Part shown: in pieces, positions 2,993-17,209 of the stretch
Position numbering within the stretch: the stretch's first letter is position 1
Layout: each line of letters opens with the position of its first letter
DNA from: Alcaligenaceae bacterium
GTDB lineage: Bacteria > Pseudomonadota > Gammaproteobacteria > Burkholderiales > Burkholderiaceae_B
Length of the DNA stretch: 64,000 bases
Assembly (NCBI GenBank): GCA_947378965.1
Contig: CANCMG010000001.1
Location: 1 to 64,000, forward strand
Reading direction: 5' to 3'
Program-made: the position numbers and the translations under genes
Notes under the pieces: generated by a model
What the model was told of the DNA's origin: nothing
Seen by the model: the letters and a program-made list of their open reading frames with translations, nothing else
Database searches by the model: none

Positions 2993-3010
2993 CGGCATAA
3001 ATAATTGAAC

Positions 3011-3511
3011 ATGATGATGCTCAGTTCACTTCCCTCAACTTCAATATCAAATATCCTCGATTACCTTTCATCGCGGCCTTCGCGATTTAGTTCACGAAAT
3101 AGATGCCTTTTTGCCCTTCGCCCATTTTTGCGTACCTACGACGTCGCCAGCCTTAGGTTACGACAGGTCATCAACCCCGCGGACGGCACTATTAATCATT
3201 ATTTTGTGTCGCGGGTAGATAGGCAGCGTTTTCACTTGAATGCCTTGACTCGTTCCGAGCTAGAACTTTATTTGCGGCAGCGGTTCGGTGTGAACTCAGA
3301 CGAATCGTTGAAACAGGTACTAAGCGTTGACCCTAACGCCCCCCTATTTCCGACGCAACAACGAAATTATTTTAGTCACAACACTCTCCAACAATTGTAC
3401 TCACACCTCAGTAAGATCGTTGATCGGCATTTCAGTACCGTCCACAAAAAAACAATACAGACTTCCAACGAAAAATGTGACGCATCCAGGAGTCACTTAC
3501 GGCTAATTTGA
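3011..3511 (+). CDS. short tyrosine-recombinase-like protein, copy 1
   Basis: Paralogous over about 135 residues to the protein at 9949-10383: both share SRNRC(L/M)FALRP(F/Y)LRT(F/Y)D, then V/ISRVDRQ, RSELELYLRQRFGV-type helices and HNTLQQLYSHLSKI(V/I)DRHF. The pattern matches the first half of the phage-integrase catalytic domain (start of the core, first Arg region, LFPTQQ strand). The protein ends before the HxxR box and the catalytic tyrosine, so it should not cut DNA by itself. In this copy the original stop is lost, and the frame runs into the conserved 66-bp element, adding about 20 residues. Start is ambiguous (TTG 3005, ATG 3011 or 3014); the paralog favours 3014. Confidence 0.55.
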   Translation: MMMLSSLPSTSISNILDYLSSRPSRFSSRNRCLFALRPFLRTYDVASLRLRQVINPADGTINHYFVSRVDRQRFHLNALTRSELELYLRQRFGVNSDESLKQVLSVDPNAPLFPTQQRNYFSHNTLQQLYSHLSKIVDRHFSTVHKKTIQTSNEKCDASRSHLRLI

Positions 3512-3540
3512 AATCGTAAATATTACGAATACCGGGGTGT
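3475..3540 (+). repeat. 66-bp conserved element, copy 1
   Basis: It starts ATGTGACGCATCCAG and ends TTACGAATACCGGGGTGT. The copy at 10417-10482 has exactly the same length and matches at most positions, including GTGACGCATCCAG and ACCGGGGTGT. Similarity also extends upstream through an A-run and ACAGACT. Here GTGAC and GTCAC form 5-bp arms (3477-3496). Both copies directly follow a recombinase-like gene, so attachment site, operator or structured RNA are candidates. Confidence 0.7.
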
Positions 3541-3677: not shown

Positions 3678-3863
3678 ATGAATATTTTTAAAATTAGAAA
3701 AGTACTAGAAGTTACGGGATTAGGACGCTCTTCACTCTACTCAATGGTTGGTGCGGGAACGTTTCCACAACCGATAAAACTGACGCCTAGAGCGGTTGGT
3801 TGGCTTGATACAGAAGTGCATGAGTGGATAGCTAGCCAAGCGGCAAAACGAACTAAAGCATAG
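3678..3863 (+). CDS. AlpA-family regulator / excisionase-like protein
   Basis: 61 residues forming one winged-helix-like MerR/AlpA domain: a first helix with VLEVTGLGRSSLYSM, then FPQPIKLTPRAVGWLDTEVHEWI, the standard AlpA pattern. Such proteins activate or direct excision of prophages, satellites and integrative elements by binding near an att site or integrase promoter. AGGAG lies 5 nt before the ATG. It sits immediately downstream of the short recombinase-like gene and the 66-bp element, which fits control of the local mobile module. Target and function are inferred from the family. Confidence 0.85.
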   Translation: MNIFKIRKVLEVTGLGRSSLYSMVGAGTFPQPIKLTPRAVGWLDTEVHEWIASQAAKRTKA

Positions 3864-3872: not shown

Positions 3873-3991
3873 ATTCAAATTTCTGCCGTTCCTGACCCCA
3901 CCGTACCCCCACCCCCGTAAATCGACGGCTTTGTGGTGCTGGAGCTTTGCACTATATTTCGCTCAAACGACTACATCAAAATTTGAGTCTT

Positions 3992-5340: not shown

Positions 5341-7398
5341 CTACTTCATCCAATCGTGTCCAGCATCCTCCATGCTCAGGACAAAATCCCATTCCGCGTC
5401 TAACATTTTTTCAATATATGGCTCGTCTCTTTGGACGACTATGTGTATTGTTGGACAATCAATGAAACCACAAAAGTAATCTATGAACGGCAGGCCAGTT
5501 ATTGCTAGGATGTGCTGAAGTTGACCATAGTGATATCCAGGGATGGTATTTGTCTTCTGAACATGTTCATAAACTTTTGCGCCAAATTTAATTTCAAAAA
5601 CTCTACTTCCATCAGCCGATATGCCATCAAGACTTGCTTTCATCCACCCCATATCAGATTCAGTAGATTGAACACACACTGGTTTAAGTGGCATGTCCAA
5701 CAATCGTTCTATGTGGGCTCTAATTATTGGCTCAAACTCTTGTCCAAGGCGAGTGGCAGCATTTCCAGCCCAAACACGAGTCTCGCCCAACTTCTCCTTT
5801 AGAAGGTACGCTTTAGACTTCCATGGATTTTCATTCATAATAACGGGAGCGTCTGATGCTCCGATACCACGCATTCTCCACTCGAGCCACTCACGGCTTC
5901 CTTGAATAAGATCCACTGTTCTATAGGATTTTAGAGGCGAATAAGAGTGGCGGATTTGCTCTACAAAATTACCTTCAAACCAATGACCTTTTTTTACGAC
6001 CGCGCCCAGTTTGTCCGTTAATACTCCTTCGCCGTGCTTTTGATTATTGCGAAACTCACCTTGAAAGATGTTGCCATTTTCAAGGGTCAATTTGCCTTTG
6101 CCGCTATAGACGCCATCTCGCCATTCGCCTTCATATTTCTGGCCGCTAGGCCAGCTGAAAACTCCCTCACCCGACCGCTTGCCGTTTTTCCAGTCGCCTT
6201 CATATTTCTGGCCGCTAGGCCAACTCATAACACCTGACCCCGACTGCTTGTCGTTTTGCCAAGTCCCCTCATATCTCTGACCATCAGCCCAAGAATAAAC
6301 ACCTTGACCCGACTTCTTGCCGTTTTTCCAGTCGCCTTCATATTTCTGGCCATTAGGCCAAGTCATAACTCCATGTCCGGAGTAACAGTCCTCCTGCCAA
6401 TTACCAAAATACTGAGCACCGCTTGATTCGATCAAGGTTCCAGTGCCGCTTTTAAGTCCTTGATGCCAATGCCCGCTATACACAGTGCCGTCTGGCCATG
6501 ACTGAACACCGTGACCCTCTATCTGATCGTCTTTCCAGCCTCCGGAATAACTTCGTCCGTCGGCAAAACGGAATGAACCAAATCCATGACGCTTTCCCAA
6601 TACCCAATCCCCAGTGTATTCAGCCCCGTTCGACCACGTGAATCTTCCGTGCCCGGAATACTGGTCGCTTTCTAGCCCACCAAAATATTTCGCGCCATCG
6701 GCTAGGAGCAAGGAGCCGGTACCCGATCTCACACCGCCTCTCCAATCACCACTATAAGTACTCCCGTTATAAAAAGTTAGCTTACCCAGCCCACTCTGTT
6801 TTCCATTAATCCACTCACCAACGTAAACATCCCCGTTCGGCCAAAGCAATTGGCCGTGACCATGTGCTTTGCCGCGATGAAACATTCCCTGGTAAACCCG
6901 TTTGTCTCGGTAGGTTAAAGTGCCATTTCCCTCGAATTTTCCCAAAAGAAATTCACCTTCATAGACCGACCCGTCCCGTGCTCTCAAAACACCATTTCCA
7001 TCAGGAAGCTCACCTGCTAATGCGCCACTGTAAAACGCTCCGTCTTTGAGTTGGGTCGGGCGCTGCAGCCGCGTTACAGAACGTCTCGCAGATAAGTAGC
7101 TCGAGAGGTAGTTGCCCCAATCAAGAGAGTTGGACCGGTCGAAAGCAATCGGCTCACCGCAATCGACAATTAAGCGCCACATATCGGCATCCGGCTCCTC
7201 ATCTGGCAACAGCGTTAGCAGAGACTCACTTTGCCGATTCATGAGCCTAGACGCATGCTGTGGACTAACAACATCGTCATAGAACTTAACAAAGAAAAAA
7301 TAGGGCTTTCGCCTATCTAGCGATTCAATAACTCCAAGTGTGCCGTCTTTGTGCGAAACCTCAAGGCCAATAAACGGAAAATAAGAATGATCGGACAT
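5341..7398 (-). CDS. MORN-repeat protein fused to YqaJ/lambda-exonuclease-type nuclease
   Basis: 685 residues in three parts. Residues 1-120 are an unassigned alpha/beta region. Residues 121-480 hold 15 MORN repeats in exact 23-residue register (aromatic-x-G at 123, 146, 169 and so on to 445), with a degenerate end unit. Residues 495-685 are a PD-(D/E)xK nuclease of the YqaJ type: EWLEWR and GIGASDA (503-517), GQEFEP (552-557), SLDG with D591, FEIK with E602 and K604, and GQLQH (625-629). All expected catalytic positions are present. YqaJ enzymes are 5'-3' exonucleases of phages and mobile elements; MORN repeats bind lipid or protein. The fusion is unusual. The promoter region has a 15-bp palindrome, and a HEPN gene follows. 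Confidence 0.85.
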   Translation of the reverse strand: MSDHSYFPFIGLEVSHKDGTLGVIESLDRRKPYFFFVKFYDDVVSPQHASRLMNRQSESLLTLLPDEEPDADMWRLIVDCGEPIAFDRSNSLDWGNYLSSYLSARRSVTRLQRPTQLKDGAFYSGALAGELPDGNGVLRARDGSVYEGEFLLGKFEGNGTLTYRDKRVYQGMFHRGKAHGHGQLLWPNGDVYVGEWINGKQSGLGKLTFYNGSTYSGDWRGGVRSGTGSLLLADGAKYFGGLESDQYSGHGRFTWSNGAEYTGDWVLGKRHGFGSFRFADGRSYSGGWKDDQIEGHGVQSWPDGTVYSGHWHQGLKSGTGTLIESSGAQYFGNWQEDCYSGHGVMTWPNGQKYEGDWKNGKKSGQGVYSWADGQRYEGTWQNDKQSGSGVMSWPSGQKYEGDWKNGKRSGEGVFSWPSGQKYEGEWRDGVYSGKGKLTLENGNIFQGEFRNNQKHGEGVLTDKLGAVVKKGHWFEGNFVEQIRHSYSPLKSYRTVDLIQGSREWLEWRMRGIGASDAPVIMNENPWKSKAYLLKEKLGETRVWAGNAATRLGQEFEPIIRAHIERLLDMPLKPVCVQSTESDMGWMKASLDGISADGSRVFEIKFGAKVYEHVQKTNTIPGYHYGQLQHILAITGLPFIDYFCGFIDCPTIHIVVQRDEPYIEKMLDAEWDFVLSMEDAGHDWMK

Positions 7399-8498: not shown

Positions 8499-8987
8499 AT
8501 GTCCCTACGCGAAGACTTTGAACAGGCTTTAGCCCTTCACATTACCCATTTATTGAGGCTCGCTGCTGACCGCAGAGGCGGAGTCTATGTATTGTTAAAC
8601 GAGCTTTTTTACTCTCACACCGATCACGATCCTATGGGTGAGGTTGAAAAGAACTTGCTGTACCGAAAACGGCGAATTGAAAAGGAATTAAGCACTCCGA
8701 CCGTTGAAGTGACTCTACAAACGGTAGCGTTGGATGCTGACCTAAAACCGCGTTGGATATTCGGCGTTATGTTCAATAAGAACGAGGATTCCGTCGCATG
8801 GGAGTGGCTTATTGACAGTGTGGCTGTCACTTTAGAACCCGACGACTCTTATGGCATTGAATATTGGCGTTTTAGTCCTAAGAATCCTTGGCCTGATGAT
8901 TTTCCAGTAAATGATGAAACTTGGGGTCTATACAGGAGGCTCGTTACCGGCGACTCTTTACTCAAAACCACGGATCCGAGACTTTAG
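8499..8987 (+). CDS. hypothetical protein, tandem paralog A
   Basis: 162 residues with no recognised domain. AAAGGAAC precedes the ATG. It aligns along its whole length with the next gene (9120-9605): both begin (R/K)-x-(D/E)FE-x-AL-x-(L/V)H, share RRGGV-type and LN(E/D)LF segments, a W-x-F-x-V-x-F strand, an EPD(D/S)SY motif and a (L/F)KT-x-(D/N)P(R/Q)L ending. There is no signal peptide or membrane segment; the protein is acidic and rich in Trp. A tandem pair of diverged copies could be an immunity-type or cofactor family, but this is speculation. Confidence 0.6.
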   Translation: MSLREDFEQALALHITHLLRLAADRRGGVYVLLNELFYSHTDHDPMGEVEKNLLYRKRRIEKELSTPTVEVTLQTVALDADLKPRWIFGVMFNKNEDSVAWEWLIDSVAVTLEPDDSYGIEYWRFSPKNPWPDDFPVNDETWGLYRRLVTGDSLLKTTDPRL

Positions 8988-9048: not shown

Positions 9049-9119
9049 CAGCGGGGTTGTCGCATGAAGGAACTCTGTGCCGGCATTGAAGCTGTACTGC
9101 TCTGACAATAGGATTGAAG

Positions 9120-9605
9120 ATGACTAAGCGTAAGGAATTTGAAGAGGCTCTCGTCGTACATTTAAAACAAATGATGTACAACGCTGCTGAAAAGCGTGGT
9201 GGTGTACATGAAATATTAAATGATCTCTTTTTTACCGAAACCTATTCGGAATTATTTGAGATGTCAGCAATGGTGGCATTTCAGAACAAACAGTCCATTG
9301 ACATGGATTTAACTAGTGCCAAAGTGTTGGCTAGTATTGAAAATGTTGAATTGAACGCCGAGCTTCAGCCCATTTGGACATTCCGTGTGCTGTTTCCTAA
9401 GAACGAGTGGCTAGATTGGGATTGGTGCGTAGAAGATGTCACCATTTCTATTGAACCTGATAGCTCCTATGAAATCTCAATTTTTATTATCAACGATGCG
9501 GGTGACCAGCTTATGAATCCCAAAAATGACGACCCGTTATGGGAAGATCACACCAGAGCAATCCGAGGTAATACCCTTTTCAAGACCTTAAATCCGCAAC
9601 TCTGA
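9120..9605 (+). CDS. hypothetical protein, tandem paralog B
   Basis: 161 residues from the ATG at 9120, preferred over TTG 9114 because AGGA lies 6 nt upstream and it aligns with the start of paralog A. It shares with A the FEEAL N-terminus, KRGGV, LNDLF, the WTFRVLF strand and EPDSSYEI, and ends LFKTLNPQL. Sequence identity is modest, so the duplication is old or the pair is under diversifying pressure. No function can be given. The 343-bp gap that follows (9606-9948) holds an inverted repeat and AT-rich direct repeats but no gene. Confidence 0.6.
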   Translation: MTKRKEFEEALVVHLKQMMYNAAEKRGGVHEILNDLFFTETYSELFEMSAMVAFQNKQSIDMDLTSAKVLASIENVELNAELQPIWTFRVLFPKNEWLDWDWCVEDVTISIEPDSSYEISIFIINDAGDQLMNPKNDDPLWEDHTRAIRGNTLFKTLNPQL

Positions 9606-9948: not shown

Positions 9949-10383
9949 ATGATGCTAAACAAGCTACCAGCCAATACGCCATTCGCAGACATTCTTGCGT
10001 ACCTTGCCACCGTACCGTCAAGATTCGCCTCACGAAATAGATGTATGTTCGCCTTGCGGCCGTATTTGCGGACTTTTGACATAGCTTATTTGTGGCTTAG
10101 AGATGTAATCAATCCCAAAGACGGAACCATTACGCATTCGTTCATTTCACGGGTGGATAGACAGCATTTTGAATTAAATGCCTTGTGTCGTGCTGAGCTT
10201 GAGCGTTATTTGAGACTGCGATTTGGCGTTGCGCCAGAAGAATCTCTGTTGGGGGTGCTACAGAACTCCCCCAATGACACGGTGTTCGCGTCTCAGCAGC
10301 GAGATCGTTTTAGCCCCAACACAGCACAACAACTGTTTTCCCAGTTAAGCAAGATTATTGACCGGCATTTCAGTTCCAACTAA
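9949..10383 (+). CDS. short tyrosine-recombinase-like protein, copy 2
   Basis: 144 residues, paralog of the protein at 3011-3511. It shows SRNRCMFALRPYLRTFDIAYLWLRDVINPxDGTI, the layout of the beginning of an integrase catalytic core, followed by SRVDRQHFELNALCRAELERYL, a VFASQQ strand and TAQQLFSQLSKIIDRHF. It stops before the HxxR and tyrosine motifs of active recombinases. Because both copies end near the same point, this looks like the natural length of a small family and not a random truncation. GAGAG lies upstream of ATG 9949. DNA binding without cleavage, perhaps as a repressor or accessory factor, is a reasonable guess. Confidence 0.55.
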   Translation: MMLNKLPANTPFADILAYLATVPSRFASRNRCMFALRPYLRTFDIAYLWLRDVINPKDGTITHSFISRVDRQHFELNALCRAELERYLRLRFGVAPEESLLGVLQNSPNDTVFASQQRDRFSPNTAQQLFSQLSKIIDRHFSSN

Positions 10384-10416
10384 CTCTAAAAAAAGGACAG
10401 ACTATCCGATAAAAAA

Positions 10417-10482
10417 ATGTGACGCATCCAGAGATCACTTAGGCTTAATTTGGATTTTTATAGCCTACGATTACCGGGGTGT
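10417..10482 (+). repeat. 66-bp conserved element, copy 2
   Basis: Begins ATGTGACGCATCCAG and ends TTACCGGGGTGT; same length as copy 1 at 3475-3540. It starts 34 bp after the recombinase-like stop codon and lies outside any gene, so its conservation is not due to protein coding. Confidence 0.7.
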
Positions 10483-10640: not shown

Positions 10641-10710
10641 TAATTCAGATATATATATCTATAAGCGTGTGACTTTTTTAGGTCAGACAGCAACAGGGGA
10701 ATAGATAAAA

Positions 10711-12210
10711 ATGTTGGAAATTAAAGTTGATCCACGGGTACTGGTCGCAATCAAAAAGGCCTTTCCAAAGCCTGCCGGCAGGGCACAAAGAGCCTTGGAC
10801 AATTATGTAATAGCACTTAAGAACCTGTTGATTGCGTCGCTGTCTCGGGGGCAGTCAACATACGAGTCTCGTTTTAATCTTTTTAGTATTTCACTACAAG
10901 ACCTTGCCAATAAAGGCCCTCAAATTGGTGAAAAAAAGATTCGGCTACATGCGTGGCTACGAGACCAAAACTTGGCCTTAATCAGAACAGTAGAACTGGG
11001 ATCTCCTGCCACAGGTACTGTTTCTAAGGCAACTTTCACAGATCTGGCTGAATTAGACTGGCATGAACCAGAAGTTGCTGAAGATCAGGTCGCAGTTGAC
11101 GGTGTCGTACTGGACAAAACGCTGTTGGATGAGAAACCAGACTCAAACGCTGAGATCTTTAACAAGCTTTTTCATGACTACGCAGACTTAGCCGCTGCCG
11201 GTACCGCTCACGAGGTATTTGACACCACTGATGTTGACATTAAATCCCTAACAAATTACATAACGTGGCTGCGGAAAAAGCCAAAACATCTCAAGCCCAA
11301 TCAAGTTAGCTCCCAATTGCTTCAGGCACGGCTTATTTTGGCTGTCGCGCAACACACGGGTGGGAAGTATCATCAACGGAAAAAACCCAGCAATTTTGGC
11401 CGCATGTACTACCACGGCACCAGCGTACAAAATGTCAGTAAGGAGCTACGAAGAGCAATGTTGGGTAATTGCTGGGAATACGACATTCGCTCCAGTGTTG
11501 TTACTTGGAAAATGGGGTTTGCGGACGAATGGGTGAAAATACATCGGCCTAAATCAACAGTACACAAAGAGTTTGTGTACACGAAATGGTATCTTGAGAA
11601 AAAAGACGAGCTGATGCTGAATGTTCAGCACTCAGTATTTGGTAAACACAGCGGTCACAGCCCAGAGTTTCAACTTATATTGTTGAAGAAAGCCTTCACT
11701 GCGTTAAGTTTTGGCGCAAGAAAGACTGGTAACAGTTGGCAAAATGAAAATGGGGAGTGGATCCCTTCGGCATTGGCAGATATTTTTAGGATTAAAGAAG
11801 AGCGCGAACTGTTTATTGCTGATCCAATTGTCAACGGTTTCATCAAAGAACAAAAAGTCTTAGACAAGTATTTTTTTGAAGGCGTAAAAGCAATTAGCCC
11901 TGACTTGCTAACTTTGCCGCACTTACAGACAAAGAAAGGTCGCGTCAGTCAACCTAAAGTCATAGCGTACCTGTATCAGCATCAAGAAACATCTGTCATG
12001 GATATTGTCCGTGACTCGCTGCCTGCGACTCACCAGCCGCCACTAGCCAACATTCACGACGCTATTATTTTGAAGCAACGCCTATCGCTTGACGATAGAG
12101 ACGCCATTCAACAGCGTATGCGAACACAGACGCGCAATCCGTACTGGCTGCTAGGGCAAACTGAGCTAAAGCGTTGGCAGTCAGATCTTGACTGGGCAGA
12201 CGTGCTTTAA
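10711..12210 (+). CDS. putative family-A/T7-type (single-subunit) polymerase
   Basis: 499 residues. The C-terminal half shows three palm-type motifs in the right order. Motif A: CWEYDIRSS with D258. Motif B: LLKKAFTALSFGARKTG, with K326, F334 and G335 in the K-x7-(Y/F)-G spacing of T7 RNA polymerase and DNA polymerase I. Motif C: ANIHDAIIL with H449 and D450. The 124-residue distance from K326 to D450 equals that between K758 and D882 of E. coli Pol I. No exonuclease domain is visible; residues 1-230 are unassigned. An AGGGGA-like site precedes the ATG. It may copy the local element or act in defence; DNA or RNA product cannot be told. I know of no named family for it. Confidence 0.6.
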   Translation: MLEIKVDPRVLVAIKKAFPKPAGRAQRALDNYVIALKNLLIASLSRGQSTYESRFNLFSISLQDLANKGPQIGEKKIRLHAWLRDQNLALIRTVELGSPATGTVSKATFTDLAELDWHEPEVAEDQVAVDGVVLDKTLLDEKPDSNAEIFNKLFHDYADLAAAGTAHEVFDTTDVDIKSLTNYITWLRKKPKHLKPNQVSSQLLQARLILAVAQHTGGKYHQRKKPSNFGRMYYHGTSVQNVSKELRRAMLGNCWEYDIRSSVVTWKMGFADEWVKIHRPKSTVHKEFVYTKWYLEKKDELMLNVQHSVFGKHSGHSPEFQLILLKKAFTALSFGARKTGNSWQNENGEWIPSALADIFRIKEERELFIADPIVNGFIKEQKVLDKYFFEGVKAISPDLLTLPHLQTKKGRVSQPKVIAYLYQHQETSVMDIVRDSLPATHQPPLANIHDAIILKQRLSLDDRDAIQQRMRTQTRNPYWLLGQTELKRWQSDLDWADVL

Positions 12211-12312
12211 CCCGGAGGACACTGTTAAGGTCACAGACGAGAGTTGCCAGTTTTGGGTATGTTCTGAAGCGGTATGATTGGTGAGCTGATATTTCAACAG
12301 GAAATTAACGAC

Positions 12313-12525
12313 ATGGCCAACACATATATCATTCAAAGAACACGGGTTGTGCGAATACACGAGTGGTTGCGAACTCGTGCGGATAACGAAAGTGACGCCC
12401 TGTCCTTAATTGAAGCAAATGAGTATGAAACTGACGATTCGCATGAACAGGTCGAATTAGAAGCCGGTGAGGCTTCGGAAGGGACGATCATTGTTGATAT
12501 TGAAGAAGTTAAAGATGACTATTGA
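12313..12525 (+). CDS. small acidic protein, 70 aa
   Basis: The ATG at 12313 is preferred over 12274 because CAGGAA precedes it at a suitable distance. The first half is a basic strand-rich segment (YIIQRTRVVRIHEWLRTRA), the second half highly acidic (ETDDSHEQVELEAGEA, then VDIEEVKDDY). It resembles small phage or plasmid proteins with an acidic tail, such as DNA mimics or immunity proteins, but has no recognised family. It follows the polymerase gene by about 100 bp on the same strand and may be co-transcribed. Confidence 0.5.
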   Translation: MANTYIIQRTRVVRIHEWLRTRADNESDALSLIEANEYETDDSHEQVELEAGEASEGTIIVDIEEVKDDY

Positions 12526-12542
12526 AGATCAGGCTGCTCGAA

Positions 12543-12607: not shown

Positions 12608-12809
12608 GCGCTGAGTTTTCCTTTTGAATCTTATATTTGCGTCAAACGGCCGAAAGTCGATGACAATCCAAGCGTATCTGTAATGAACTAGCTTGAAGAT
12701 TCAAGGGCAAGATTTCCTTTGATATAGACAGAGATACGCGGCGCGAGTGGGAAACACGCTCTTGCGAGCGAAGCTTGTATTTAGAGTATCACCCTGGGAA
12801 AATCAGGTT

Positions 12810-14663
12810 ATGACCAAAAGCATCAAAAAATTGAATTGGGGACGCAGTTTCCAGCGTGCTGCTATGGAGGCGACTGGCAAAGCGTTTGATGTGGCAGTTA
12901 AAAGCGCTGAGGTAGGAAAGAAGGCTCTAGCAGAGCTAGATCACAAGGCTCACATTACTGAAGCCGTCAAAGCGATTGGTACAAAAACCATAGAAAGTTC
13001 GGTCATGATTGATGATCGATACAAAATTGGACGTAGAGTGAGTACAGCAGCATCGCGTTTTAAGCGAGCGGGTGGCGCAGCGTTGGATGCTGGGAAGCAT
13101 TTTGCAGAAATTACCGGCGCAACAAATTTAGCCGACAAGATCAAGGACAAAACACACGCGTCAATTATCGAGCCTTCCCAAAAAATTCTAAAAGAAACGG
13201 GAGTTAGCGGTGCGTTTAATTCCGTTGGTCATGTCACAGAAGTCGCATACGGAAAAACCCGAGAAGTTATCAAGCCCTACTTCACCAGCGAAGACCCACA
13301 CGAACTACTCAAAAATACACGCGCTGAACTTGCTCACATTTCTTCATGCATTATGCAGATTAACAGCAGCGAATCTGAAAAGCTGGCCGACCAATTTGGT
13401 AAGGCAATCGTATCCAAAATTTCAGGCGCTGCGGCGTCCGGAGCACTGTTATCACTCGTAGCGACCTTCGGCACCTCAGGCACTGGCACGGCGATCGCTA
13501 CGTTATCCGGAGCGGCATCAACCAGCGCCACGTTAGCTTGGGTCGGCAGCCTAGTTGGAGGCGGCATGGTGGCGGGTGCTGCACTGACTGGCGGGGTCTC
13601 GCTAGTACTCGGGCTCGCCGCATACAAGCTGCTCGGTAGCGAGCGCCGTACCTTCGAGTCACTTAGCGAGGCGGAGCAGCGGATCGTGCAGTCCTCATGG
13701 CTTGTGATGGCCATCATTGACGATTATCTAAAGAGCCCGCCTGAGCTCTTCACGCAGAAAGAGGCTGAATTACTTTTCGCCAAATTCTTTCGCCCTCTGT
13801 TATTAGAGTTAACCGATAACACCGATGCAATCTGTGAAAACCTTGACGGACGTCACGCGGTCATATTTCGGCAACACGTGTTAACAGACTTTAAACAAGT
13901 AGTGATTGCGGGGTTCGAGCGATTTATTGAGGGGTACCCGCTGAAAGGCTTTTATAACGCAGAGTATGTCATTGGCGGAGTCTTTCATGGACTGCTTACT
14001 CAAACTGCAGTAAGTAGTGATTTTGAAAGCCAACTGGTGCTGGATGCCCTGCGAAGATCGACTGGTTCTCTTTCACGCGCCACTGAGAGTCAACTCGGTG
14101 ACTATCTACGAGAGTTATCTCCCGAGGGCTTGAAAGGTGTTGGTTCGAACGTAAAGGGGATTTATCACGAATTGCTGTTCACCCACAATTACAACGATTC
14201 ACACGTTGATACATACGCTGAAATGTTCACTGAGACCAATCATCCAGGTGCAGATATTCAGATCAGGGATGCCCAGACGCAAGCGGTCATCGGAGAATAT
14301 CAGCTGAAGTCTGTTGCAGGTGCAGCGTCAATACACACGCATTTCCACAAGTACCCAGACATTCCTGTTTATGCAACTGATGAGGTAGCTCAAAAATTTT
14401 CGGGCTCGCAAGTCGAAAGCAGTGGCTTTGAAAATGAAGTGCTCAAAGCTCGTGTGCAAGACGACCTTGATTCAGTCGCCGACAATTCTTTGAACGACCG
14501 AGCATGGGATTCTTTTTTGCTTGCGGCTGGAGTTGCGTCGTCGCGGGAGTTGTTCGAGATGGTTAAGGGTGACCGTGAGTTTCCGGATGCTGTAGCAAAC
14601 GCTTGTAAGGCCGCTGGAGTTTCGAGCGCGTCTACGCTGATGGCCGCATACTTGTTTGGTTAA
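12810..14663 (+). CDS. protein with Gly/Ala-rich membrane hairpin and PD-(D/E)xK-like C-terminal domain
   Basis: 617 residues from the ATG at 12810; an upstream GTG at 12747 is possible but lacks a binding site. Residues 1-180 are basic and helical. Residues 200-275 form two hydrophobic segments rich in Gly, Ala, Ser and Thr (GAAASGALLSLVATFG and GGGMVAGAALTGGVSLVLGLAAY), as in glycine-zipper pore or membrane-insertion proteins. The C-terminal domain shows YHELLF (E454), HPGADIQI (D482) and GEYQLKS (E496, Q498, K500), a restriction-endonuclease-like pattern E...D...ExQxK. An effector that senses or perforates membrane and cuts nucleic acid is one reading. It is not a family I can name. Confidence 0.5.
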   Translation: MTKSIKKLNWGRSFQRAAMEATGKAFDVAVKSAEVGKKALAELDHKAHITEAVKAIGTKTIESSVMIDDRYKIGRRVSTAASRFKRAGGAALDAGKHFAEITGATNLADKIKDKTHASIIEPSQKILKETGVSGAFNSVGHVTEVAYGKTREVIKPYFTSEDPHELLKNTRAELAHISSCIMQINSSESEKLADQFGKAIVSKISGAAASGALLSLVATFGTSGTGTAIATLSGAASTSATLAWVGSLVGGGMVAGAALTGGVSLVLGLAAYKLLGSERRTFESLSEAEQRIVQSSWLVMAIIDDYLKSPPELFTQKEAELLFAKFFRPLLLELTDNTDAICENLDGRHAVIFRQHVLTDFKQVVIAGFERFIEGYPLKGFYNAEYVIGGVFHGLLTQTAVSSDFESQLVLDALRRSTGSLSRATESQLGDYLRELSPEGLKGVGSNVKGIYHELLFTHNYNDSHVDTYAEMFTETNHPGADIQIRDAQTQAVIGEYQLKSVAGAASIHTHFHKYPDIPVYATDEVAQKFSGSQVESSGFENEVLKARVQDDLDSVADNSLNDRAWDSFLLAAGVASSRELFEMVKGDREFPDAVANACKAAGVSSASTLMAAYLFG

Positions 14664-15910: not shown

Positions 15911-15986
15911 TGGTGGGCGGTACAAGTTTCGAACTTGTGACCCCTGCCGTGTGAAGGCAGTGCTCTACCACTGAGCTAACCGCCCA
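15911..15986 (-). tRNA. tRNA-Val (CAC anticodon)
   Basis: On the minus strand the sequence begins TGGGCGGTTAGCTCAGTGG and ends with the complementary CCGCCCA followed by encoded CCA. Anticodon arm CTGCC-TTCACAC-GGCAG gives anticodon CAC, reading GUG. D-arm (GCTCAGTGGTAGAGC) and T-arm (GTTCGAAAC loop region) are complete. Its 3' end faces the accessory block at 1-15.9 kb, the usual geometry for a tRNA-associated genomic island. Confidence 0.95.
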
Positions 15987-16288: not shown

Positions 16289-17209
16289 TTGTGCAGTGAG
16301 CATATCCTGGTAACAACTAAACGGCCGTTCGAGAAACCCCCTACTTCTTACGCTCAACAGGCAGCTCAACTTCAGCAACGAGGCATGGAAATAAGTGACC
16401 TCTCTCAAGCTGAGTTCTACTTGCAACACCTGAATTATTACCGGTTAGGCGCTTACTGGCTGCCATTTGAGTCCGATCACACAACACACTTATTCAGATC
16501 TGGCACCAAATTTGAAGAGGTCTTGAGCCTTTACGTATTTGATCGTGAGCTCCGACTCTTGATGCTAGATGCCATTGAGAGAGTCGAAGTGTCAATCAGA
16601 AGCCAGTGGGCCTATCAAATCGCTCATTTGCACAATCCACACGGCCATTTGGACGCAACGCTGTCTGTCAATAATAGTCGTTGGCAGAAAAATCTAGCGA
16701 AACTGACAACGGAGGTAAATCGATCTGATGAAAACTTCATCAAACATTTGATAACGACGTACAGCGAAGCACTACCACCCATTTGGGCGGTCTGTGAAGT
16801 CATGTCGCTTGGCTTGTTATCACGTTGGTTTGACAATCTAAAGCCCATGAAAACCCGTCGCGCTATCGCTATGGTTTACGGTGTGGATGAGCAAGTGCTC
16901 GCGTCCTGGCTGAGGCATCTTTCCTTGGTACGCAACATCTGCGCTCATCACAGTCGTTTGTGGAATAGAGATTTCACAATAACGCCGACCCTGCCTCGCA
17001 ACAAGCCAGTCGGACTTGCTAGTCAGTGTATTCCCGGCTCACGCAAGCTCTACAACACACTGATCATTTTGCTTCACTTGATGGATATGATTGCACCAAA
17101 GCACATTTGGCGTATTCGCGTAAAAGATCTCCTGAGTGAACATGAAACTCTGGTGACCGCGATGGGTTTCCCTGCGGACTGGGTGGAAAGCAAAATCTGG
17201 AGATGCTAA
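16289..17209 (+). CDS. Abi_2/AbiF-type abortive infection protein (HEPN)
   Basis: 306 residues of the AbiD/F family. Typical marks are [21 protein letters not shown] near the N-terminus, [13 protein letters not shown] (48-60), [41 protein letters not shown], and [14 protein letters not shown], in which R215 and H220 form the HEPN Rx4H motif. Members stop phage growth, probably by RNA cleavage. The start is uncertain: the frame is open upstream, TTG 16289 is the only usual start that keeps the conserved N-terminus, and no clear binding site is seen. The structured RNA at 16217-16277 lies directly in front. The gene stands alone next to the tRNA. Confidence 0.9.

Follow-up and report, generated by a model that had tools for sequence, protein, structure and literature searches.

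The TV-Pol family was described by Iyer, Abhiman and Aravind in 2008 (PMC2579912). In the parts of that paper drawn on here, TV-Pol has a minimal family-A core without a nuclease, encoded by a stand-alone gene, and carries an additional N-terminal domain predicted to be all-helical. A beta-hairpin with an invariant, template-contacting arginine, two palm aspartates, RxxxK in the first fingers helix and a thumb made of two antiparallel helices belong to the family, and its genes have a D5 helicase or an integrase or resolvase gene in their neighbourhood. Family-A polymerases are also found on recombinase-bearing islands as the CcPol-MP and PolA-SSB primases, for which the passages used mention a small gene behind the polymerase, large serine recombinases and, at the PolA-SSB primases, an adjacent OB-fold SSB-like protein (PMC10061031). 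CcPol, a DNA primase-polymerase, retains E710 and F762 in the portion of its description used here (PMC7581432). Divergent family-A enzymes of tailed phages have been termed divPolA1 and divPolA2; according to the excerpts cited, divPolA2 lacks an exonuclease, has an N-terminal domain of unrelated origin and may act as an RNA polymerase (PMC11348598).

The window, as the whole stretch of 64,000 nucleotides analysed is called here, carries a polymerase ORF of 499 aa with an ATG start at 10711-12210 (+ strand, as are all its codons given below). A sequence-only reading had assigned it to a stand-alone family-A palm, and the three motifs were found where that reading had placed them. Motif A, EYDIRSS, holds D258 (codon 11482-11484), motif B, LLKKAFTALSFGARKTG, holds K326 (11686-11688) and F334-G335 (11710-11715), and motif C, ANIHDAIIL, holds H449-D450 (12055-12060). 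In an alignment of 24 rows (the window and 23 of the 24 loci of the contig scan), R231 (11401-11403), Q240, R247, D258, R260, K326, T330, F334 and G335 are invariant; Q423 (11977-11979), E426, H449, D450 and A451 are invariant in all 22 rows long enough to reach them. Conservation of this kind makes the motifs more than a chance resemblance. The spacing from the motif B Lys to the motif C Asp is 124 (450-326) as claimed. Pol I has the same spacing. The proposed resemblance of motif B to that of T7 RNA polymerase is the K-x7-aromatic-G pattern, and this is common to Pol I too. As to the reported lack of an exonuclease domain, no exonuclease family was matched in a Pfam scan of the ORF. Selection on the gene is purifying, with a median dN/dS of 0.067 (31 of 276 pairs with dS of 0.05-1.5). 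The highest dN/dS, 0.329 at dS near 1, is that of the window-L005 pair; this value of 0.33 would allow relaxed constraint in the window's lineage.

The ORF matched no family in Pfam, PHROGs or NCBIfam at E<=1, DNA_pol_A (PF00476) included, and no PADLOC model at E<=0.01. Pfam and PHROGs searches over all 24 rows gave only weak scattered matches (best E 0.0072 and 0.074), and a search of the PDB by sequence or profile returned no relevant match. The same genome also encodes an ordinary PolA, which does match the PF00476 model. The polymerase clade is thus without a name in these four family libraries, and no account of it was found in the open-access literature, subscription papers being mostly outside the search.

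Structure comparison links the enzyme to family A. The AlphaFold model (24 rows) has a mean pLDDT of 83.9 and a pTM of 0.64. Foldseek gave 73 PDB matches at E<=0.001 (best E 1.9e-7, probability 1.00). The best 50 of the 73 are Pol I/T7-type DNA polymerases (Klenow, Taq, T7), one of them titled T7 replisome, and the TM-scores to Pol I structures among these best 50 are just 0.30-0.41. This fold search supports the stand-alone family-A palm. Among viral models, the top two matches are full-length unnamed phage proteins of 25% and 21% identity; viral replication proteins come next, that of Zamilon at rank 9. By profile, the family matches three IMG/VR proteins over the full length (E 2.4e-68) and TV-Pol-like plasmid and phage proteins (E 1e-14, or E 1.1e-16 when three genome members from the phylum search were added). 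The TV-Pol-like set in turn matches the polymerase domains of nine chromosomal PolA proteins (E 2.2e-5 at probability 76, and E 4.2e-6 at probability 87), with the TGRL hairpin, motif A, the K...YG helix and the HD of motif C all in register. Direct profile comparison of the family with PolA was negative (E 0.073 and 0.13); membership in family A therefore rests on the fold and the intermediate profile set. R231 aligns to the PolA TGRL via this set, with strands predicted at 219-226 and 232-234, and helices 177-189 and 196-215, candidates for the two thumb helices of TV-Pol, are predicted ahead of the hairpin (AlphaFold). In the N-terminal part, predicted helices 62-68 and 79-85 are followed by predicted strands 91-95 and 105-109, and this order in the model suggests a winged-helix-like domain.

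The enzyme shares with TV-Pol the minimal nuclease-free core, the stand-alone gene, the additional N-terminal domain, the hairpin arginine (here R231) and the two palm aspartates (D258 and D450). Its elements may also bear recombinases: recombinase clusters 9, 10 or 41 occur in 13 of the 24 loci. It differs in the first fingers helix, where K326 is kept in 24 of 24 rows and the arginine four residues before it (position 322) is found in none; this arginine is present in 9 PolA rows and, by eye, is also missing in all six TV-Pol-like relatives. Because of the missing arginine of RxxxK the family is termed TV-Pol-like here and is not filed as a TV-Pol member. The strands in the N-terminal domain and a conserved cis element, described below, also set it apart. 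No D5 helicase was noticed in an analysis not aimed at helicases. The polymerase is a variant of the TV-Pol-like kind and probably works like TV-Pol.

The predicted fold and the motif order are those of Pol I. The differences, besides the missing DNA_pol_A match, are at the positions which we take to be those of E710 (V263), F762 (T330), Y766, E883 and R754 (the Arg at K-4) in Pol I numbering. In the 24-row alignment the E710 position is V in 23 rows and A in one, the F762 position is T, the Y766 position is F, the E883 position is A, and the R754 position is never R. As both E710 and F762 are replaced, the usual grounds for expecting ribonucleotide exclusion are missing. Loss of this exclusion is a prediction from the residues, and given the same two replacements the first strand may be DNA or RNA. 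CcPol, with both residues retained, differs from the family in this respect. The islands compare with those of CcPol-MP and PolA-SSB in carrying a family-A polymerase beside recombinases and a small gene behind it, in this case a DUF6641 gene in 15 of 24 loci; the recombinases here are of the tyrosine type in contrast to the large serine recombinases there. With divPolA2 the enzyme shares divergence, an unrelated N-terminal domain, the lack of an exonuclease match and a possible role in RNA synthesis. A difference is that among phage records tblastn matched only the two of one Desulfovibrio phage, in collections that may not hold the divPolA phages.

The homologs and their neighbourhoods support the mobile-element setting proposed from the sequence; 24 bacterial loci and 3 viral contigs were found. 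In the kinship set, 4 of 61 genomes match at E<=0.001, namely the genome of the window, G018 (58% identical), G005 (44%) and G003 (a 74-residue fragment). One contig scan gave the 24 loci, by their titles mostly Burkholderiales (Limnohabitans, Zwartia, Curvibacter and Comamonadaceae MAGs), with Rhizobiales and Legionellaceae MAGs also present; two of the loci repeat copies already named, L005 that of G018 and L020 that of G005. Limnohabitans, Zwartia, Curvibacter and Comamonadaceae are known from fresh water. The order search matched 2 of 399 genomes (the window's own and a stretch with two TGA, E 8.4e-4), the class search with a mixed profile 1 of 369 (the own one), and the phylum search 4 of 398, own included. 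The nearly empty order and class searches indicate that the family is patchy.

Two viral scans returned no polymerase relative, and a third yielded the 3 IMG/VR contigs. Searched by tblastn at E<=0.01, the collections of phages and plasmids gave no match to the window polymerase itself. A relative on the Polaromonas plasmid pW9NP1 was first met as a weak tblastn match (E 0.5), and its protein led to another on the Polaromonas plasmid pH8NP1 (E 4e-58); one in the Nitratidesulfovibrio phage SRB7757 was matched by tblastn at E 3e-4. The phage protein (L034, 7167-9470) is an unannotated TV-Pol-like protein of 767 aa with a long C-terminal extension. On pH8NP1 the polymerase gene does not adjoin repA. 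Both plasmids are classed as RepA_C plasmids by Ciok et al., and the passages used here do not discuss the polymerase gene (PMC6015842).

ORFs of the 24 loci and of 24 kb of the window were clustered. The DUF6641 (PF20346) gene lies about 0.8 kb or less downstream of the polymerase and is absent from the window; its assignment comes from the L010 copy (E 1.1e-13). From each recombinase cluster one member was compared with Phage_integrase; those of clusters 9 and 10 exceed the Pfam cut-off, and that of cluster 41 has only E 0.011. Several loci are short contigs, so gene absences there say little. The DUF6641 model (pLDDT 72.5) had no PDB fold match at E<=0.001, and an SSB-type companion of the kind found at PolA-SSB primases is thus unsupported. 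In the window, an 83-aa ORF stands instead behind the polymerase (12274-12525, +), and the same arrangement is seen in G018 (L005). The G018 copy has DctPQM genes as neighbours on a contig of 7 kb, and DNA similarity of this contig to the window is limited to the polymerase and the 83-aa ORF (11035-12531, 73%).

Upstream in the window, an ORF of 284 aa (1855-2709, +; cluster 16) has relatives in the polymerase-bearing L006, L011, L014, L025 and L026. Two truncated ORFs of cluster 9 resemble recombinases, the first at 3005-3511 (+; Phage_integrase E 0.027, below cut-off) and the second, tyrosine-recombinase-like, at 9949-10383 (+; E 0.0013, below Pfam's cut-off); by eye, the second lacks the portion that would hold the C-terminal catalytic residues. 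Each adjoins one copy of a 95-nt repeat (3446-3540 and, on the + strand, 10388-10482; 72% identical). A tRNA-Val(CAC) gene at 15911-15985 (-) lies 3.7 kb beyond the polymerase gene, and its 3' end is likely the integration site of islands in the genus. Copies of this 3' end recur in genus genomes, five over 15 kb in G005, where the polymerase lies between tRNA-Val and the first tRNA-end copy, 14.8 kb apart. The G003 fragment is 2.9 kb off tRNA-Val on the same side; in 3 of the 4 genus genomes with a match, the polymerase is on the 3' side of tRNA-Val. The window holds no second tRNA-Val end copy by 13-mers, which leaves the left end of the element undefined. The spacing of such tRNA-Val(CAC) 3'-end copies is 2-6 kb in G005, G017 and G026 (L075, L079, L084), as if small islands had been inserted in tandem. 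Integron cassettes were considered because in L020 the polymerase is preceded by a gene that, by eye, resembles an integron integrase. They were rejected: five stretches scanned for attC sites had between 0 and 2 isolated candidates apiece and no array.

In 22 of 25 loci a conserved 21-nt element with the consensus TACTATAWGNNTGTGACTTTT precedes the assumed start codon by 54-115 bp, with <=4 mismatches (four in L006). In the window it is at 10657-10677 (+) with two mismatches, the sole site in 64 kb at <=4 mismatches, and may be an origin, a start site, an operator or a promoter. L005, whose gene is short of about 80 N-terminal residues, has no match; L023 and L028, counted among the 25, have the gene start outside the locus. 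Three more matches occur elsewhere in the loci's 396 kb. The 259 kb of other loci used as control gave two matches, both in phage records carrying polymerase relatives (L030, L034). A 10-nt core is found in 18 of 22 upstream stretches as against 2.75% of shuffles. Many of the 22 loci are close kin and do not count as 22 independent observations; the element-bearing L008, L009, L011 and L014 encode proteins just 43-44% identical to that of the window.

A whole-genome search for the element covered 19 cellular genomes, all picked as polymerase carriers, and gave 40 sites at <=3 mismatches as against 12 for the reversed pattern. Of the 40, 26 precede a polymerase gene by no more than 330 bp, and seven polymerase genes were newly found through them (L100, L117, L118, L120, L124-L126). 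Eleven sites had no polymerase in the surrounding DNA seen; three of these, on two contigs, are by eye close to AAA-type ATPase genes, one is close to an integrase-like gene, and one is 11 kb off the polymerase in L006. The inspection of neighbourhoods covered 37 of the 40 sites. In L093/L113 and L122 the element (1 mismatch) has AAA-type ATPase genes close by and no polymerase nearby, and a 435-aa-type gene (cluster 118) is present on the opposite side.

The IMG/VR contig G1147 (34,030 nt) is probably circular, since its first and last 127 nt are identical. Before its polymerase gene, two inverted element copies flank three extra GGTGTGYATAT boxes in non-coding DNA, and five GTGTGYATAT boxes fall in about 230 bp (shuffle mean 0.002). 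L008 has three boxes and L007 two. The two other viral contigs lack the exact GGTGTGYATAT, so the element is not shared by the phage relatives at large. Iteron origins typically have clustered boxes next to a replication gene; those by the polymerase gene may instead be an operator or promoter. Iterons ahead of the window's polymerase gene were rejected, the 329 bp there containing no repeats.

The enzyme is probably a TV-Pol-like family-A replication polymerase or primase of a mobile element, starting at its own site. The catalytic residues are kept, a Pol I-domain fold is predicted, the gene is linked to mobile DNA, and the 21-nt site is conserved. Close relatives sit on viral contigs and in bacterial loci, a good many of which have tyrosine recombinases; remote ones are carried by two small plasmids. 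The reading also draws on the repA gene adjoining the polymerase gene on pW9NP1, the box cluster of G1147, the ordinary PolA of the window's own genome and the place of the gene between tRNA-Val and a tRNA-end copy in G005. It is weakened by the negative direct comparison with PolA, the low TM-scores, the missing arginine of RxxxK, the lack of repeats ahead of the window's gene and of a second tRNA end in the window, the distance from repA on pH8NP1, the unsupported SSB-type companion and the dN/dS of the window-L005 pair. The N-terminal part would bind the upstream element as replication origin or start site, and the polymerase domain would begin and extend a strand there as primase and polymerase, either copying the excised circle or completing a newly arrived single strand. 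A tyrosine recombinase would then put the element back, here by tRNA-Val. The sequence-only reading had proposed copying or transcribing of the element, or defence; copying is likeliest, and transcription is possible.

A bolder version, which we hold to be unlikely, makes the protein an origin-binding initiator, primase and polymerase in one. Its minimal family-A palm, joined to a winged-helix domain, would begin chains de novo at the protein's own TACTATAWG element and might use ribonucleotides for this. The enzyme would be a living intermediate between DNA polymerases of the TV-Pol type and single-subunit RNA polymerases, common to tailed phages and chromosomal islands.

An unnamed family-A clade with a candidate start site offers a compact system for testing primer-free starts by the Pol I fold. 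The clade bears on the divergence of DNA and RNA polymerases with this fold, and the findings hint at how tRNA-integrating islands in freshwater bacteria copy themselves.

That the enzyme is a single-subunit RNA polymerase, with the TACTATAWG element as its own promoter, appears quite unlikely. V263 and T330 in place of E710 and F762 agree with it, as do the position of the element ahead of the gene, its start-site-like form (a TATA-like core and a G-rich start) and the few extra copies near other genes, AAA-type ATPase genes included. We take the element to resemble published single-subunit RNA polymerase promoters. However, no T7-type RNA polymerase is among the best 50 of the 73 PDB matches, Pfam and NCBIfam give no RNA-polymerase family match, and the genome of the window has just one good element site. 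The exact phage box, found four times in G1147 (reversed, 0), is confined to one 150-bp cluster and not scattered before genes.

That the enzyme is an island polymerase for repair or lesion bypass, and the element an ordinary operator that regulates it, is improbable. Family-A enzymes often act in repair, and conservation and an inverted-repeat-like form, as in L007 and L008, would also be expected of an operator where a repressor covers a promoter; yet the element accompanies the gene both in chromosomes and in a phage, forming a cluster in the latter, and on pW9NP1 the polymerase gene stops 10 nt ahead of the annotated repA.

A defence role, as proposed earlier by analogy to retrons or DRTs, is unlikely, and a polymerase of that logic highly so: the next gene but one (12747-14663, +; 638 aa) matches the PADLOC candidates PDC-M72B (E 5.9e-25) and PDC-M09A (E 9.8e-15) and a gene beyond the tRNA (16289-17209, +) matches AbiD (PADLOC E 8.6e-75), but the polymerase itself has no PADLOC match, no ORF of the other loci clusters with the 638-aa neighbour, the relatives are on viral contigs and plasmids, and Rfam on 1-30000 gave tRNA only, with no family beside the polymerase.

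The Abi_2/AbiD-type gene at 16289-17209 (+; E 1e-58 in the Pfam scan) is also found in G004 at 90% DNA identity. Paralogous proteins of 162 and 163 aa without a family match are encoded at 8499-8987 and 9114-9605 (+). A small AlpA-like ORF (3678-3863, +; by eye) is followed by a 76-nt stretch (3895-3970, +) that occurs three times in G005 at 84% identity. An unusual fusion is encoded at 5341-7398 (-): a 685-aa protein that has MORN repeats in 14 stretches and, in addition, an exonuclease domain of YqaJ/RecE-like type.
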